Under the pieces are notes generated by a model. It made no database searches. It saw only the letters and a program-made list of their open reading frames with translations, and was not told the origin of the DNA. 64,000 bases of DNA, taken from the NCBI GenBank assembly GCA_022794265.1, contig JAAWEK010000030.1, forward strand, positions 1-64,000, read 5' to 3'. The DNA comes from Lachnospiraceae bacterium (lineage in GTDB: Bacteria; Bacillota; Clostridia; Lachnospirales; Lachnospiraceae). Each line of letters opens with the position of its first letter. Position 1 is the stretch's first letter. A program made the position numbers and the translations under genes. Positions 41,138-49,699 of the stretch are shown one piece after another.

Positions 41138-42568
41138 ATGGAAAAATACAATTTTATCTCTCATTCCTCCAAGGATGGAGCAATAGCCACTCAACTATGC
41201 AAATATTTGGAGAATCACGGAAAGATATGTTTTATTGCTCCAAGAAATATCCGGTCCGGGCGGGATTATGCGGAGGAAATAATCGATGGTATTGACAATT
41301 CCCAGGCTATGATTTTACTGTTATCCAATCATTCAAACCAGTCGGCACATGTATTGCGGGAAGTGGAACGGGCCGTCAGCAAGTCGATTCCGATTATTAC
41401 ATATAAGATTGAAGAAGTAGAACTGTCGAAATCACTGGAATATTTTCTGATGACAAATCAATGGATGGATTCGGAAAAAAGCCGGGTTTTTTCAAATATA
41501 CTGGAATGTATCAATGATATAGAGGAACTAAAAAACAGCAGGACTGATGAACAGGAATCCGGTTTGGAACCGGAAGAGAGGGAAAAGAAAATTACATTGG
41601 AAGCGGACAGAACGAAGTCAAAAATTTTTGTTGCAGTAGCAGGTATACTGGCTGCCGCTTGTCTGACAGGAGCTGTACTGTTCTTTTGGAAAGGAAATGA
41701 TTCCTTAACGGATAGGACCACAGAAAATGCGGCGGTAGAAAATAATACGAATGAATCGGATAATATGATGAAAGATATCAAAGTCGGAGATACTTTAAGC
41801 TTTGGTACATACAATGAAGAACCTATTGAATGGAGAGTATTAAAATTATCAGAGGATAAAAAAGAAGCTGTTTTGATTACAAAATATATAATCTCCATGA
41901 AAGCTTATGATGCGGCTGAGAGCGGAGCATATAATTATGTTGGCTCGGAATCCTATTGGGCAAAGGATTCCGAGGCAAATTCAAATATGGCATTACAAGC
42001 GAAAGTACGGGGAAATAGTGACTGGAGTACTTCGAATATTCGAACCTGGCTGAATTCACAAGGTGAAGTAGTGACATATTCTGATCAGGCGCCGGCGGCG
42101 GCAGCAATGTCCGAAAAGAAAAACGAATATAGTCTTGAAGCCGGATTTCTCTATGGATTTAGTGAGAAGGAGCGTGAAGCGATTCAGGAGGTTGAGAATA
42201 CAACAAAAGGAAATGAATTAGCTAAAGGTAACATGATAAAAACAACCGACAGGGTATATTTGTTATCAATAGAAGAACTAAAATGGTTTGAGGAAGCGGA
42301 AATGAGTATGCTGGCAGAACCTACAAAAGCGGCTGTTGAACAAGATAAGACGAAATGGTATCAAAATTTATATGTAGACCAGACAAAAGGCAATACAAAT
42401 TATTGCTGGTGGCTTCGGGAACCAGTAGAAGGATTCTCCAGTAGATGCTATTTAGTAGGAAACGGATTTATGGAAGAAAATCTTTGGACAGATAAAAATG
42501 TCGGTGTAGAGGGATACGGAATCCGTCCTGCGATTACGGTCAATTTAGAAAAAATTAATATGCCATAG
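41138..42568 (+). CDS. TIR-domain membrane protein with C-terminal DUF6273 domain
   Basis: A 476-residue protein after AAGGAG. Residues 1-135 form a TIR domain: F-I-S-H-S-S-K-D, then I-A-P-R-N-I-R-S-G-R-D-Y, and a helix L-R-E-V-E-R-A-V that may carry the NADase glutamate, then I-P-I-I-T-Y. A lysine/glutamate linker and one membrane helix (about 167-188) lead to an extracytoplasmic DUF6273 domain with S-F-G-T-Y, W-R-V-L, N-I-R-T-W-L-N and W-W-L-R near the end. The topology places TIR inside and DUF6273 outside, like a one-pass signalling receptor. Bacterial TIR domains often make or degrade NAD-derived signals in defence. No partner gene is adjacent. Confidence 0.88.
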   Translation: MEKYNFISHSSKDGAIATQLCKYLENHGKICFIAPRNIRSGRDYAEEIIDGIDNSQAMILLLSNHSNQSAHVLREVERAVSKSIPIITYKIEEVELSKSLEYFLMTNQWMDSEKSRVFSNILECINDIEELKNSRTDEQESGLEPEEREKKITLEADRTKSKIFVAVAGILAAACLTGAVLFFWKGNDSLTDRTTENAAVENNTNESDNMMKDIKVGDTLSFGTYNEEPIEWRVLKLSEDKKEAVLITKYIISMKAYDAAESGAYNYVGSESYWAKDSEANSNMALQAKVRGNSDWSTSNIRTWLNSQGEVVTYSDQAPAAAAMSEKKNEYSLEAGFLYGFSEKEREAIQEVENTTKGNELAKGNMIKTTDRVYLLSIEELKWFEEAEMSMLAEPTKAAVEQDKTKWYQNLYVDQTKGNTNYCWWLREPVEGFSSRCYLVGNGFMEENLWTDKNVGVEGYGIRPAITVNLEKINMP

Positions 42569-44158: not shown

Positions 44159-44490
44159 TATCAGAATACAAAGAATGCGATGAAGGGAACAAGTAGTATC
44201 GGTTTATGTCTTTCAGAGAGCAGCCGGATGGTGAAAGGTTGCAGACAGGCAGATATGAATACCTCCCGGAGCAGCCGGCTGAACGGGAAAATAAATGGCA
44301 CACGATTGTTGGTACTGTTGTTTTCCACAGTAGGAGCGGACGGGAGCGCCCGATACAGCGTATGAGTGCAGGAATGATTGGCCTGCACTTCCAGAGAAAA
44401 GTTTCGTGAGGAATTTTTGAACAGAGGTGGTACCGCAATCTTTGCCCTCTGTACCGGAATGATTATCCGGTACAGAGGGATTATTTTTTA
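44159..44490 (+). promoter_or_regulatory. T-box leader, tyrosine-specific (UAC specifier)
   Basis: Stem I begins with the AGAGAGCAGCCGGATGGTGAAA pattern. The specifier bulge ATGAATACCTCC places UAC at 44260-44262. The T-box AGGTGGTACCGC is at 44425-44436. The terminator CCCTCTGTACCGG/CCGGTACAGAGGG (44445-44479) is followed by T6. A TATAAT at 44147-44152 with a weak TTTTCA at 44124-44129 is the likely promoter. It controls tyrS. Confidence 0.95.
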
Positions 44491-44514
44491 TAGAAAGAAA
44501 TGGAGGAAGAAATA

Positions 44515-45738
44515 TTGAAGATCTATGATGAACTGGTTGCCCGGGGCCTGATTGCACAGGTTACGGATGAAGAAGAAATTAAAGAACTGATTAACAACGG
44601 AAAGGCTACGTTTTATATTGGTTTTGACCCTACCGCTGAATCCCTGCATGTGGGACATTTTATGGCATTATGTCTGATGAAACGTCTGCAGATGGCGGGA
44701 AATAAACCGGTGGTGTTACTGGGCGGCGGAACCGGATATATCGGAGACCCGTCCGGCAGAACCGATATGCGGAGCATGATGACGCCGGAAACTATTCAGC
44801 ACAATTGCGAATGTTTTAAAAAACAGATGGAGCGTTTTATCAATTTTGGTGAGGGCGGCGCAATTGCTGTCAATAATGCAGACTGGCTTTTAAAATTAAA
44901 TTATGTAGAATTACTTCGGGAAGTAGGAGCCTGCTTCTCGGTTAATAATATGCTTCGTGCGGAATGTTACAAGCAGAGAATGGAAAAGGGATTATCCTTT
45001 TTAGAATTTAATTACATGATTATGCAGTCTTATGATTTTTATCATTTATTTCAGGAATATGGATGTAACATGCAGTTTGGTGGTGATGACCAGTGGTCCA
45101 ATATGCTGGGCGGTACCGAACTGATTCGAAGGAAGCTGGGGAAAGATGCGTATGCAATGACGATTACCCTTCTGATGAATTCCGAAGGCAAAAAGATGGG
45201 AAAAACCGCCAATGGTGCAGTGTGGCTGGATGCTAACAAAACTTCGCCGTTTGAATTTTTCCAGTATTGGAGAAATGTATCTGACCGGGACGTATTAAAA
45301 TGTATCCGTATGCTGACATTTCTGCCGTTAGAGCAGATTGAGGAAATGGACCAGTGGGAAGGAGCAAAACTGAACGAAGCCAAGGAAATACTGGCATATG
45401 AACTGACGAAACTGGTGCATGGGGAAGAAGAAGCGGAAAAAGCGAAAACAGCTTCTCATGCCCTGTTTGCAGGCGGAAGCGACGATTCAAATATGCCGAC
45501 CACAGAAATAGAGGCCGATACACTGACAAACGGTGAAATCGGAATCATGGATTTAATGGTACTCTGCAAACTGGCAGCTTCCAAAAGCGAAGCCAGAAGA
45601 CTGGTTCAGCAGGGTGGAGTCTTTGTCAATGATGCAAAGGCAGAAACCATTGATTATAAAGTTACGGAAGCTATGCTAAAAGAAGGAGTCAAAATACGAA
45701 AAGGCAAGAAGACATTTCATAAGGCTGTTTACAAATAA
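44515..45738 (+). CDS. tyrS: tyrosyl-tRNA synthetase
   Basis: A 407-residue class I synthetase. TTG 44515 is preferred: GGAGG at 44502-44506 lies eight bases before it, and M-K-I-Y-D-E-L-x-A-R-G-L is the usual start in relatives. The ATG at 44500 overlaps the ribosome site. The HIGH motif is H-V-G-H near residue 45, the tyrosine-binding region includes G-G-D-D-Q-W, the KMSKS loop is K-M-G-K-T near 233, and an S4 RNA-binding domain forms the C-terminus. It charges tRNA-Tyr. The upstream tyrosine T-box confirms function and regulation. Confidence 0.96.
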
Positions 45739-45779: not shown

Positions 45780-45821
45780 CAGCAGATGATTATTAGAAAA
45801 ATTTTGGAAAGGAAGATAAAG

Positions 45822-46292
45822 ATGTCAGCAGAGAAGGCAAGAGAGCATCTGTTTCAATATGATATGGGGGACAGAATCATAGAATTTAACGAGTCCAGCG
45901 CCACGGTGGAACTGGCGGCTCAGGCTATTGGTTGTGAAGAAGCCATGATTGCAAAAACTATTTCTTTTTATGTAGATGAAGGAGCAGTATTAATTGTGGC
46001 GGCGGGAGATACTAAAATTGATAATCCGAAATTTAAGGCTTACTTTGGGTGTAAGGCAAAAATGATTCCGGCAGCAGAGGTAGAAGCGGCAGTAGGACAT
46101 GCACCGGGAGGCGTTTGTCCTTTTGGCGTGAAAGAAGGTGTGAAGGTCTATCTGGATGATTCTTTAAAGCGGTTCGAAGTTGTTTATCCTGCTGCCGGTT
46201 CCGCAAACAGTGCAGTAAAAATGACGCTGGAAGAATTGGAACGGGCATCGGAGTCGTCATCATGGATTGATATATGTAAATATAAGGAATGA
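45822..46292 (+). CDS. YbaK/EbsC-type aminoacyl-tRNA deacylase-like protein
   Basis: A 156-residue protein; ATG 45822 follows GGAAGATAAAG (an in-frame ATG at 45786 lacks a ribosome site). The fold signature of the YbaK/ProX editing family is present: A-K-T-I-S-F-Y near residue 46, A-A-G-D-T-K-I-D near 59, H-A-P-G-G-V-C-P-F-G near 95 and Y-L-D-D-S-L near 113. Such proteins hydrolyse mischarged aminoacyl-tRNAs in trans; the exact amino acid is unclear. Placement between tyrS and a ribosome-directed GTPase-nuclease gene, nine bases apart, puts it in a translation-quality cluster. Confidence 0.9.
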   Translation: MSAEKAREHLFQYDMGDRIIEFNESSATVELAAQAIGCEEAMIAKTISFYVDEGAVLIVAAGDTKIDNPKFKAYFGCKAKMIPAAEVEAAVGHAPGGVCPFGVKEGVKVYLDDSLKRFEVVYPAAGSANSAVKMTLEELERASESSSWIDICKYKE

Positions 46293-46301
46293 GGATACGC
46301 G

Positions 46302-48962
46302 ATGAGTGAAACTTCAGATAATCTGGTACTGGGACTTCTGGCCCATGTAGATGCGGGAAAGACTACATTGTCGGAAGCCATGCTTTATTTATGCGGAAAC
46401 ATCCGGAAAATGGGACGGGTGGATAACGGAGATGCGTATCTGGATACTGATATCCAGGAGAGGGAGCGGGGAATTACTATTTTTTCAAAACAGGCACTGC
46501 TTTCATTGGGAAAGAAGAAAGCTGCTCTGTTAGATACACCGGGACATGTGGATTTTTCGGCAGAAATGGAACGTACATTACAGGTATTGGACTATGGTAT
46601 TTTGATAATCAATGCTCTGGACGGTGTTCAGGGGCATACCCGGACGCTGTGGAAATTACTGACACGGTATCAGATACCCACGTTTATTTTTATAAACAAA
46701 ATGGACCGGCCGGAAGCAGACCGGAACAAACTGTTAAAAGAACTGAAAGAGACTTTGGACGACAGATGTGTGGAGTTTGACGGAGAGCGGATGGAAAACT
46801 GGAAGCCGGAGCGGATGGAGCAGATTGCATTATCCGATGAAGTATTGATGGAGAAATATCTGGAAAACGGAGAATTTCAGACAGAAGATGTTCAGAAGAT
46901 GATTAAAAATCGGAAACTGTTTCCTTGTTATTTTGGTTCCGCATTGAAATTAGAGGCCATTGATGTATTTTTGAAAGGACTGGAGTTATATACAAAAGCG
47001 AACAGTTATGGAGAAAATTTCGGAGCCAAGGTATATAAAATATCCAGGGATGAGCAGGGAAACCGTTTGACTTATATGAAGATTACCGGTGGAGTTTTAA
47101 GAGTGAAAGAACGGCTGGGAGAAGATAAAATTAACCAGATTCGGATTTATTCTGGAAAACGGTATGAAACGGCGGAAGAAGTCCGGGCAGGAGATGTCTG
47201 TGCCGTTTTGGGACCAGAAGGGACACGTCCGGGACAGGGTCTGGGGGCAGAGCCGGATTCAGAATTACCTCTGTTAGAGCCGGTACTTACCTATCAGGTT
47301 CTGCTGCCGGAGGATTGCAATAGGAACGGGATACTGCAGAAATTAAAACAGATGGAAGAGGAAGCACCGGAGCTCCATGTTCTGTGGAATGAAAAAACTG
47401 CAGAAATACAGGTACAGCTTATGGGAGAAGTACAGATTGATGTATTAAAGCGTATGATTTATGAGCGGTATGGTATAAGGGTGGGGTTTGGAACCGGAAA
47501 TATTGTTTATAAAGAAACTATTGCAGGCACGGTGGAAGGCGTCGGGCATTTTGAACCATTGAAGCATTATGCAGAGGTGCATCTGATTCTGGAACCGGGA
47601 GAACCGGGTAGCGGACTTCAGTTTGACACCAATGTCAGTGAAGACAGTCTGGACAAAAACTGGCAGCGTTTAATACTGACTCATTTGGAGGAAAAACAGC
47701 ATAAAGGGGTTCTTACCGGGTCGGATATTACGGATATGAAAATAACGCTGGCAGCAGGAAAAGCCCATCTGAAACATACAGAGGGCGGAGATTTTCGGCA
47801 AGCCACCTATCGCGCAGTCCGGCAGGGACTGATGGAGGCTGAAAGTATTTTATTGGAACCGTACTATGAATTCCGGATGGAAATTCCTCAGGAAAGTATC
47901 GGCCGGGCCATGACGGATATTGAGAGGATGCATGGAACCTGTGAATCTCCGGATACTGCGGGTGGAATGGCAGTATTGACTGGTACCGCTCCGGTTTCTG
48001 CCATGAGTGGATATCAGACGGAAATCACTTCTTATACCAGGGGAACCGGAAGGATATTCTGTGCATTAAAGGGATATGCACCCTGCCGGAATCCGGAAGA
48101 GGTAATAGAAAAAATCGGATATCATGCGTCAGGAGATATGGAAAATCCTTCTTCATCCGTTTTCTGTGCCCATGGTGCAGGTTTTGTGGTGGAATGGAAT
48201 GAAGTGAAAAAATATATGCATTTGGAAAGCGTATTGCCGGATTACCTGGGAGATTCCGGTTATCCGGCAGATGAACCAGACAGATCCGCTGTCAACCGCA
48301 AACAGGGGAGAGTAAGCAGTTCTATTGTAAGCGACGACGAACTGAAAGCAATTTTTGAACGGACGTACGGTCCGGTAAAGCAGCGGGAGACAAACCGGCC
48401 GAAACGTGTGGTATTTCAGCCGAAAGAAACGGAATATAAAGGAAAGTCTGATAAAAAAAATATAGAAGAATATTTATTGGTTGACGGTTATAATGTAATA
48501 TATGCCTGGGAGGATTTGAGAGAACTGGCAGAAGTTAATATGGATGCGGCAAGGGACCGCCTGCTGGATATTATGTGCAATTATCAGGGATACCGGCAAT
48601 GCAACCTTATTGTAGTATTTGATGCCTATAAGGTCCGGGGATTTCAGGGAGAAGCAACCCGGTATCACAATATTGAAGTAGTATTTACAAAAGAAGCGGA
48701 AACTGCCGACCAGTATATAGAAAAACTGGCCCACAATTTTGGAAGGAAATACAGGGTCACAGTGGCTACTTCCGATGGACTTGAGCAGATTATTATCATG
48801 GGACAGGGGTGCAGTCTGCTTTCATCCAGAGAATTAAAATTGGAAGTGGAGCGTCTGAACCAGCAGATTCGTGAGGAATATCTGGAGAAACAGGAGAAAA
48901 ATCATAATTATCTGCTGGATCATGCAGACGATTTGGTCAGGGATTACGGGAACAGGTCGTAG
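46302..48962 (+). CDS. TetM/EF-G-like translation GTPase fused to a Rae1/YacP-type NYN nuclease domain
   Basis: An 886-residue protein after GAGGATACGCG. The GTPase has G1 A-H-V-D-A-G-K-T-T near residue 14, G3 D-T-P-G-H near 78 and G4 N-K-M-D near 130, with EF-G domains II-V to about 650 as in ribosomal protection proteins. After a linker (650-725) comes a NYN/PIN-like domain: L-L-V-D-G-Y-N-V-I-Y-A-W, V-V-F-D-A-Y-K-V, T-A-D-Q-Y-I-E-K and V-A-T-S-D-G-L-E-Q, the pattern of YacP. In Bacillus subtilis, YacP (Rae1) is a ribosome-dependent A-site endoribonuclease. The fusion implies that the GTPase delivers the nuclease to the ribosomal A site. Tetracycline protection is not implied. Confidence 0.9.
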   Translation: MSETSDNLVLGLLAHVDAGKTTLSEAMLYLCGNIRKMGRVDNGDAYLDTDIQERERGITIFSKQALLSLGKKKAALLDTPGHVDFSAEMERTLQVLDYGILIINALDGVQGHTRTLWKLLTRYQIPTFIFINKMDRPEADRNKLLKELKETLDDRCVEFDGERMENWKPERMEQIALSDEVLMEKYLENGEFQTEDVQKMIKNRKLFPCYFGSALKLEAIDVFLKGLELYTKANSYGENFGAKVYKISRDEQGNRLTYMKITGGVLRVKERLGEDKINQIRIYSGKRYETAEEVRAGDVCAVLGPEGTRPGQGLGAEPDSELPLLEPVLTYQVLLPEDCNRNGILQKLKQMEEEAPELHVLWNEKTAEIQVQLMGEVQIDVLKRMIYERYGIRVGFGTGNIVYKETIAGTVEGVGHFEPLKHYAEVHLILEPGEPGSGLQFDTNVSEDSLDKNWQRLILTHLEEKQHKGVLTGSDITDMKITLAAGKAHLKHTEGGDFRQATYRAVRQGLMEAESILLEPYYEFRMEIPQESIGRAMTDIERMHGTCESPDTAGGMAVLTGTAPVSAMSGYQTEITSYTRGTGRIFCALKGYAPCRNPEEVIEKIGYHASGDMENPSSSVFCAHGAGFVVEWNEVKKYMHLESVLPDYLGDSGYPADEPDRSAVNRKQGRVSSSIVSDDELKAIFERTYGPVKQRETNRPKRVVFQPKETEYKGKSDKKNIEEYLLVDGYNVIYAWEDLRELAEVNMDAARDRLLDIMCNYQGYRQCNLIVVFDAYKVRGFQGEATRYHNIEVVFTKEAETADQYIEKLAHNFGRKYRVTVATSDGLEQIIIMGQGCSLLSSRELKLEVERLNQQIREEYLEKQEKNHNYLLDHADDLVRDYGNRS

Positions 48963-49003: not shown

Positions 49004-49699
49004 ATGAATGAAGAGATGTGTATAAAACCCATTGCCCATATATATAATGATTATACTGAAAAGTTTGGTATTCCCAGGCAAAGCGGCATTGTAGCAGACG
49101 TGGAATCAAAAATAATTTTCACTCCGGAATACCGGGATATCAATGCGGTAAGAGGAATGGAAGGCTATTCTCATATCTGGTTGCTCTGGGGATTCAATGA
49201 AAACGGTCAGCAACTGGGGGAATGGTCTCCTACGGTACGGCCGCCAAGACTTGGAGGAAATACCAGAATTGGGGTTTTTTCCACCCGTTTTCCGTTTCGT
49301 CCCAACTCTCTGGGACTTTCTTCCGTATGTCTTACGGGAATAGAAACAGAGGGGAAAGAAGCACCGGTTTTAACAGTAACAGGTGCGGACATTAAAAACG
49401 GAACTCCGGTATATGATATAAAGCCGTATATCACATATTGCGACTGTCATCCCGAGGCATGTTCCGGATTTGCAGAACAGGTGAAAGATTATCGTTTGCA
49501 GCCGGTAATTAGTCAGGAACTTCTGGAACGGATACCGCCCGGGAAAAGAGCTGCCGTTACGGGAATACTGGCACAGGATCCCAGACCGGGTTACCAGCAG
49601 AATGAAGACAGGATTTATGGATTCCGGTTTGCAGATATGAATATTAAGTTTATAGTAGAGGGAGACAGGATAATTGTAAAAGAGGTTGCAATCACCTAG
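49004..49699 (+). CDS. trmO: TrmO/TsaA-type tRNA N6-threonylcarbamoyladenosine methyltransferase
   Basis: A 231-residue protein with AAGGAAGG upstream. The TsaA fold is recognisable from P-I-A-H-I-Y-N-D-Y at the N-terminus, G-M-E-G-Y-S-H-I-W-L-L-W near residue 50, the SAM-binding region P-P-R-L-G-G-N-T-R-I-G-V-F-S-T-R near 80, R-P-N-S-L-G-L-S near 102, and D-I-K-P-Y near 145. It methylates t6A37 in a subset of tRNAs. It is adjacent to the GTPase-NYN gene, a further translation-related neighbour. The length equals that of bacterial TrmO. Confidence 0.92.
   Translation: MNEEMCIKPIAHIYNDYTEKFGIPRQSGIVADVESKIIFTPEYRDINAVRGMEGYSHIWLLWGFNENGQQLGEWSPTVRPPRLGGNTRIGVFSTRFPFRPNSLGLSSVCLTGIETEGKEAPVLTVTGADIKNGTPVYDIKPYITYCDCHPEACSGFAEQVKDYRLQPVISQELLERIPPGKRAAVTGILAQDPRPGYQQNEDRIYGFRFADMNIKFIVEGDRIIVKEVAIT

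Follow-up and report, generated by a model that had tools for sequence, protein, structure and literature searches.

We analysed a window of 64,000 nucleotides from a Lachnospiraceae bacterium (assembly GCA_022794265.1, contig JAAWEK010000030.1, positions 1 to 64,000 of the forward strand), in which tyrS with its T-box leader, a tRNA_edit gene, a GTPase–nuclease fusion gene and trmO lie close together (Table 1). The open reading frame of the fusion starts and ends exactly at 46302 and 48962, and its product matches the Pfam domains of both an EF-G/TetM-like GTPase and a YacP/Rae1-like NYN nuclease, which bears out the fusion claimed in a preliminary description of this DNA. The architecture had already been published in 2015 (Atkinson, PMC4342817, in the accessible part of that article), and the window protein is a member of that kind.

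Table 1. Features of the fusion locus, in window coordinates
Feature	Position	Strand	Basis and remarks
T-box leader upstream of tyrS	44171..44452	+	Rfam RF00230, 111.4 bits; specifier read as UAC (Tyr)
Terminator-like hairpin at T-box end	44445..44479	+	Pattern scan; 14 pairs, then a T-run
tyrS, tyrosyl-tRNA synthetase	44500..45738	+	Pfam
tRNA_edit (YbaK-like) gene	45786..46292	+	Pfam; 9 bases before the fusion; 57.2 bits vs YbaK equivalog cut-off of 153.25
Fusion gene, EF-G/TetM-like GTPase and YacP/Rae1-like NYN nuclease	46302..48962	+	ORF of 886 aa, ATG start; Pfam
GTPase domain, residues 9-230	46326..46991	+	Pfam GTP_EFTU, E 5.5e-49; motifs AHVDAGKTT, RGIT, DTPGH, NKMD
EF-G-like domain IV, residues 400-513	47499..47840	+	Pfam EFG_IV
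EF-G-like domain V, residues 517-597	47850..48092	+	Pfam EFG_C
C-terminal extension of GTPase subfamily, residues 595-640	48084..48221	+	C595, Y607, D612, S619, F621, C622, G625, G627, H640
Variable tether, residues 641-723	48222..48470	+	Short motif E(L/V)xxI near 680-684
NYN_YacP nuclease domain, residues 725-876	48474..48929	+	Pfam and whole-genome search; D728, D774, D803, D825, N731
trmO	49004-49699		Pfam

Two further matches, EFG_III (residues 326-397, Pfam) and EF-G_D2 (residues 241-309, under the Pfam cut-off), add to a set of EF-G domains that, together with intact G motifs, places the protein in the EF2 family. The nuclease domain scores 181.9 bits against NYN_YacP (PF05991; cut-off 24.6, E 1.3e-53), and at 886 aa the fused protein lies outside the ~170-aa format of stand-alone YacP/Rae1. 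By sequence, the GTPase part has TetM (3j9y) as its nearest solved structure, and the NYN part has YacP (5mq8 and 5mq9, which we take to be the Bacillus subtilis protein). The fused domain is the only NYN_YacP detected in the window's genome, which is 91% complete, and another EF-G-type match in the same genome lies in a 722-aa frame (G000:C7).

Conservation and distribution of the fusion

Relatives in named genomes were collected with a profile of the C-terminal half of the protein, extending from the GTPase end through the NYN domain, and the best 80 of at least 595 all carry both parts in the same order; because the query spans both parts, this set favours fused proteins and shows recurrence, not frequency. 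Seventy-eight of the 80 are single uninterrupted frames, the other two being cut at a contig edge (L130) or frame-split (L149). Given this recurrence, the fusion is not an assembly accident. Judged by their record titles, the 80 come mostly from Lachnospiraceae, with Desulfosporosinus and Oscillospiraceae also represented, and the spread of the fusion, a check proposed in the preliminary description, is further documented by the sampled Clostridia genomes described below.

The 78 one-frame relatives and the window protein were aligned (79 rows). Loss of the NYN acids among homologues, which the preliminary description had named as refuting its reading, was not seen: D728, N731, D774, D803 and D825, among which we presume the catalytic acids to lie, are invariant in all 79 rows and match YacP in the alignment, and the domain can be aligned to Bacillus subtilis YacP over 135 residues with the same acids. 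The G motifs are equally constant (D17, G19-T22, R56, I58, T59, D78-H82, N132, K133 and D135, all 79/79), with residue 18 being A in 75 rows and S in 4; in domain IV, residue 494 is E in 77 rows and Q in 2. Within the C-terminal extension, C595, D612, S619, F621, C622, G625 and G627 are invariant (79/79), Y607 is invariant in 55 of 55 rows and H640 is kept in 77 of 79. A Cys directly follows H640 in many unfused members, and together with the invariant C595 and C622 these residues could form a metal site.

The tether varies from 70 to 143 residues across the 79 rows. I684 is present in 78 of them, and [ED][LIVM]xxI occurs anywhere in the tether in 77, a count that carries no chance-rate baseline. 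A conserved internal start that could yield a free NYN domain was sought, and a Met at residues 712-726 was found in 3 of the 79 rows. At the C-terminus, an LExxR-type motif, a criterion derived in the present analysis and not a published one, is present in 28 of 30 separate YacP proteins vs 11 of 97 fused rows (last 30 residues), and in 34 of 78 named fused rows when a longer tail of 40 residues is considered. It is absent from the window protein, whose docking may therefore differ.

For the distribution of the two parts, we crossed the NYN_YacP matches of 291 genomes of Clostridia, the class of the window's genome, with matches to a profile of the GTPase part. The name of the class follows from G152, a genome of that class whose NYN domain is nearly identical to that in the Monoglobus pectinilyticus record. 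Full-length GTPase matches, fragments excepted, split into a subfamily at or above ~692 bits, aligned through the C-terminal extension, vs other Tet types and EF-G at 574 bits or below. NYN_YacP was matched in 189 genomes (one of them below the Pfam cut-off) and the subfamily GTPase in 122, fused in 106 and unfused in 16. The 106 comprise 101 genomes with a GTPase match in a frame of at least 760 aa and an NYN match, at least four of them contig-cut or broken (G081, G070, G224 and G221), plus 5 genomes with pieces, and they include one (G131) with a contig-cut GTPase only, without the NYN domain. Copy number is mostly one per genome across a wide range of Clostridia; two fused copies were found in G133, a genome 61% complete, and in G295, with 6% contamination. 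At the phylum level, the subfamily occurs in 20 of 299 genomes, two of these being unfused by frame length.

A separate YacP was found in none of the 106 fusion genomes vs 84 of the 185 others (p 5e-21, a value that overstates independence since the genomes are related). These 84 consist of 55 seen in frames of 168-216 aa among the matches listed and 29 inferred from an NYN match without a subfamily GTPase. In many of the sampled relatives, the fusion seems to take the place of a separate YacP. Three genomes (G136, G201 and G242) were rejected as carriers of two YacP genes, their second match covering only profile positions 3-49 and falling below the cut-off; G224 was likewise rejected as a genome with both a fusion and a separate YacP, its GTPase and NYN matches each reaching a contig end, as one gene cut in two would.

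Among the 16 genomes with an unfused GTPase, a separate YacP was also seen in 10, and no NYN_YacP was matched in the other 6 (3 of them from one genus), suggesting that the GTPase is useful independently of the nuclease. NYN_YacP occurs without the GTPase in 74 of the remaining 169 genomes (45 separate among those listed, 29 inferred), so that co-occurrence of unfused GTPase and YacP is not significant (10/16 vs 74/169, Fisher p 0.19), which speaks against a tight functional pair before fusion.

Evolutionary history and gene neighbourhood

Phylogenies were built by quick searches with moderate support, leaving out duplicates, truncated and frame-split rows and using 44 hand-picked fused rows for the GTPase. 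In the NYN tree, built from 127 domains (97 from fused and 30 from separate proteins), a single fused clade was not rejected (p-AU 0.928), and the version constrained to hold the fused rows together scored higher; a single clade of all fused rows was likewise not rejected in the tree of 70 GTPase sequences (p-AU 0.884), where the constrained tree again scored higher. The GTPase tree separated the subfamily from four Tet-type proteins (99*) and grouped all 44 fused rows in one clade (99*) with two unfused ones, L203 from Ligilactobacillus salivarius and L181 from an IMG/VR contig that, judging by its composition, we take for Bifidobacterium. The position of these two inside the fused clade suggests later loss of the NYN domain, and one fusion followed by occasional nuclease loss would be the simplest reading.

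Two separate YacP proteins from the window's own family, L017 (G243) and L061 (G305), score 206 and 181 bits to the window NYN domain, nearer than most other separate YacP proteins, and could descend from a fused form. L181 and a second IMG/VR copy, L182, are unfused GTPases at the very edge of their contigs (positions 1-2181), and the gene may adjoin a prophage site.

The neighbouring genes had been named in the preliminary description as a YbaK deacylase, tyrS and trmO. All three were located, the first as a tRNA_edit protein that scores below the YbaK equivalog cut-off (Table 1). The tyrosine reading of the T-box specifier presumes its position within the T-box; the pattern scan that returned the terminator-like hairpin found 7 sites vs 5.1 in shuffles. 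The argument drawn from these translation genes survives for tyrS and within the window's genus only. No match to tyrS, to the tRNA_edit gene or to trmO lies close to the fusion in any of the 80 named loci (tblastn; 58 of the 80 with at least 2 kb on both sides), and the tRNA_edit gene was matched in none of 107 other loci, many with short flanks. In 27 further loci from relatives in the family and order, with flanks of ~1.5 kb, tyrS was found in 7, all from the window's genus, and trmO, placed after the fusion, in one (L048).

Within that genus, 7 of the 8 sampled relatives have tyrS ahead of the fusion (tblastn), at a distance of 2 to 392 bases, and a T-box with its specifier read as UAC precedes tyrS in 6 of those 7 as well as in the window. 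Promoter- or terminator-like sequence is visible by eye in some of the gaps between tyrS and the fusion, making co-transcription likely in some genomes only; in the window, a weak hairpin, absent from the pattern-scan sites, is visible by eye between tyrS and the tRNA_edit gene. Placement beside tyrS and a tyrosine T-box would suit a function under shortage of charged tRNA.

Five neighbour families recur, each at 6 to 9 loci: a response regulator, a MatE transporter, an ABC transporter ATPase, GreA and an AraC regulator. A further set of frames, on the minus strand at 63 loci, looks like shadows of the fusion gene itself. Elsewhere in the window, positions 41138-42568 (+) encode a protein of 476 aa that has a TIR domain at its N-terminus (TIR_2, E 3.6e-17), a membrane stretch seen by eye and a C-terminal DUF6273, for which PADLOC gave weak matches only, to the TIR parts of Thoeris and other systems.

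Proposed function and comparison with known systems

Rae1 is translation-dependent, and its stated or proposed place of action is the ribosomal A site (PMC10100781 and PMC6613710, in their accessible parts); the R166P entry for Rae1 in a table of the latter is given no weight here. The explanation that we find best, and hold with about as much belief as doubt, is that the window protein is its host's Rae1-type endoribonuclease, tethered to a GTPase and cutting mRNA in the A site. In the course of events that we infer, from ribosome binding to A-site cleavage by the fusion, the EF-G-like part would bind ribosomes with an empty or blocked A site, domain IV would enter the site and probe or clear it, and GTP hydrolysis would withdraw domain IV again. 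The NYN nuclease on its tether would then take the vacated A site and cut the mRNA there, and the cut would free the stalled message for decay. Ribosome structures suggest that the A site could not take domain IV and a Rae1-like domain at once, and we propose a sequential handover in place of joint occupation; a tether of at least 70 residues is in principle long enough for it.

In favour of Rae1-type A-site cutting we count the retained active sites, the absence of a separate YacP wherever the fusion occurs in the sample, the single fused clade not rejected for either the NYN domain or the GTPase, and the placement with tyrS and its T-box in the genus. Against it we count the unfused GTPases in genomes without NYN_YacP and their lack of significant co-occurrence with YacP. 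The Rae1 of B. subtilis is described as working without a fused GTPase, and this too counts against the reading, as does the missing LExxR-type motif. The tyrS link is also weighed on this side as being confined to one genus, with some gaps that, by eye, could hold promoters or terminators. The genome counts are phylogenetically non-independent.

Some of the same observations suit a different account, which we regard as possible though unlikely: the GTPase would serve generally to clear ribosomes or in a translocation-like step, and the NYN domain on its tether would cut RNA that is associated with the ribosome but lies outside the A site (exposed mRNA, rRNA or tRNA), so that the fusion would provide nearness and not A-site entry. 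Persistence of the unfused GTPase without NYN_YacP in 6 of 16 genomes, a long and variable tether, and the frequent lack in fused forms of the C-terminal motif of separate YacP all fit this account, as does the competition for the A site expected between domain IV and the NYN domain from known structures. The active-site residues of the NYN domain are those of YacP, however, and genome-by-genome replacement of YacP by the fusion in the sample favours the same substrate.

Atkinson 2015 (PMC4342817), in its accessible part, reports, for ten clostridial species, Tet proteins that carry a YacP-like NYN RNase domain; it assigns the fusions to Tet and suggests that the RNase acts in resistance to tetracycline. 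That the window protein is such a ribosomal-protection protein with an added RNase strikes us as improbable. The idea has a published proposal behind it, TetM is the best solved relative, some members are annotated publicly as TetM/TetW/TetO/TetS family, and tet_protect is the best NCBIfam model for the window GTPase (best E among 21 fused members, 1.4e-133). The score on that model, however, is 417.4 bits, and 377.5-397.1 bits for four further subfamily members, far under the curated cut-off of 775; the window protein stays under every Tet cut-off in NCBIfam, and on the EF-G model it reaches 295.5 bits vs a cut-off of 659.4. In alignments, the tip of its domain IV reads G486-x2-H489-x-KHTEGGDFR499 vs YYSPVSTPADFR in TetM, and unfused subfamily members carry variants of the KHTEGGDFR-type tip. 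The C-terminal extension is mainly common to fused and unfused members (L059 being without most of it) and was not aligned in the four Tet-type proteins compared, which also fall outside the subfamily in the tree. The subfamily is present in 122 of 291 sampled genomes, yet among 72,556 plasmid records only 2 contain a match that covers 80% of the protein. Judged by sequence and by the NCBI standard, the GTPase, fused or unfused, is a Tet-like subfamily distinct from the Tet proteins, with its own domain-IV tip.

Two plasmid-record entries, L203 (3980-5914) and L204 (3986-6787), are annotated as TetM/TetW/TetO/TetS family, yet they score 381 and 389 bits (cut-off 775) and have a different tip loop. 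A protein listed publicly under a TetM-family resistance name (Agathobacter rectalis, Ligilactobacillus salivarius) can thus turn out to be a member of a separate subfamily scoring at about half the Tet cut-off, and resistance calls resting solely on that name deserve care. Ligilactobacillus salivarius L33 was considered as a natural test of tetracycline susceptibility and set aside as uninformative, since PMC12502609, in its accessible part, also reports tet(M) and tet(L) there.

A role in defence, which the preliminary description had entertained and which we take as that of an anti-phage factor halting translation on infection, is unsupported and very improbable: a nuclease at the ribosome lends it general plausibility, whereas PADLOC returned a single stray ThsB match (E 0.0056) that satisfies no model, the five recurrent neighbour families are ordinary, both copies on IMG/VR contigs are unfused and at contig edges, and the gene is mostly single-copy in a wide range of Clostridia.

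Returning to Rae1-type cutting in the A site, we tentatively extend it, at somewhat less than even confidence, to a more specific proposal: in many Clostridia, Rae1 would exist only as the covalent passenger of an EF-G-like GTPase of its own, marked by the KHTEGGDFR tip and dedicated to opening the A site of stalled or hungry ribosomes, in one genus under tyrosyl-tRNA control. We found no existing name for the GTPase subfamily with this tip. The fusion physically ties a Rae1-type enzyme to a translational GTPase, placing GTP hydrolysis and mRNA cutting in one polypeptide, and, as it seems to replace the separate nuclease in many sampled relatives, it is well suited to testing how the nuclease gets to the ribosome. 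New here are that apparent replacement, a single origin that is not rejected, the distinction of the GTPase subfamily from Tet, and the genus-level link to tyrS.

No experiment on a fused member was found in the literature within reach, which excludes most subscription papers. Searches for NYN combined with EF-G, ribosomal protection or tetracycline resistance returned, besides Atkinson 2015, nothing tied to the fusion, and PMC3482391 and PMC8195603, searched for NYN, YacP and EF-G, hold nothing on it.

Among known systems, the TetM/TetO ribosomal protection proteins resemble the window protein in that its residues 10-594 align with TetM; they differ from it in the tip of domain IV, in its extra C-terminal extension and in its sub-cut-off score. 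EF-G shares its domain order, whereas the window protein is far under the EF-G cut-off. Rae1/YacP of Bacillus subtilis has an NYN domain with the same acids and is a separate protein, whereas the window protein is fused and lacks the LExxR-type motif. The proteins of Atkinson 2015 (PMC4342817), as far as the accessible part describes them, have the same architecture and taxonomic home; our account departs from the assignment made there in that the window GTPase scores under the Tet cut-off, with the fusion taking the place of the separate YacP.
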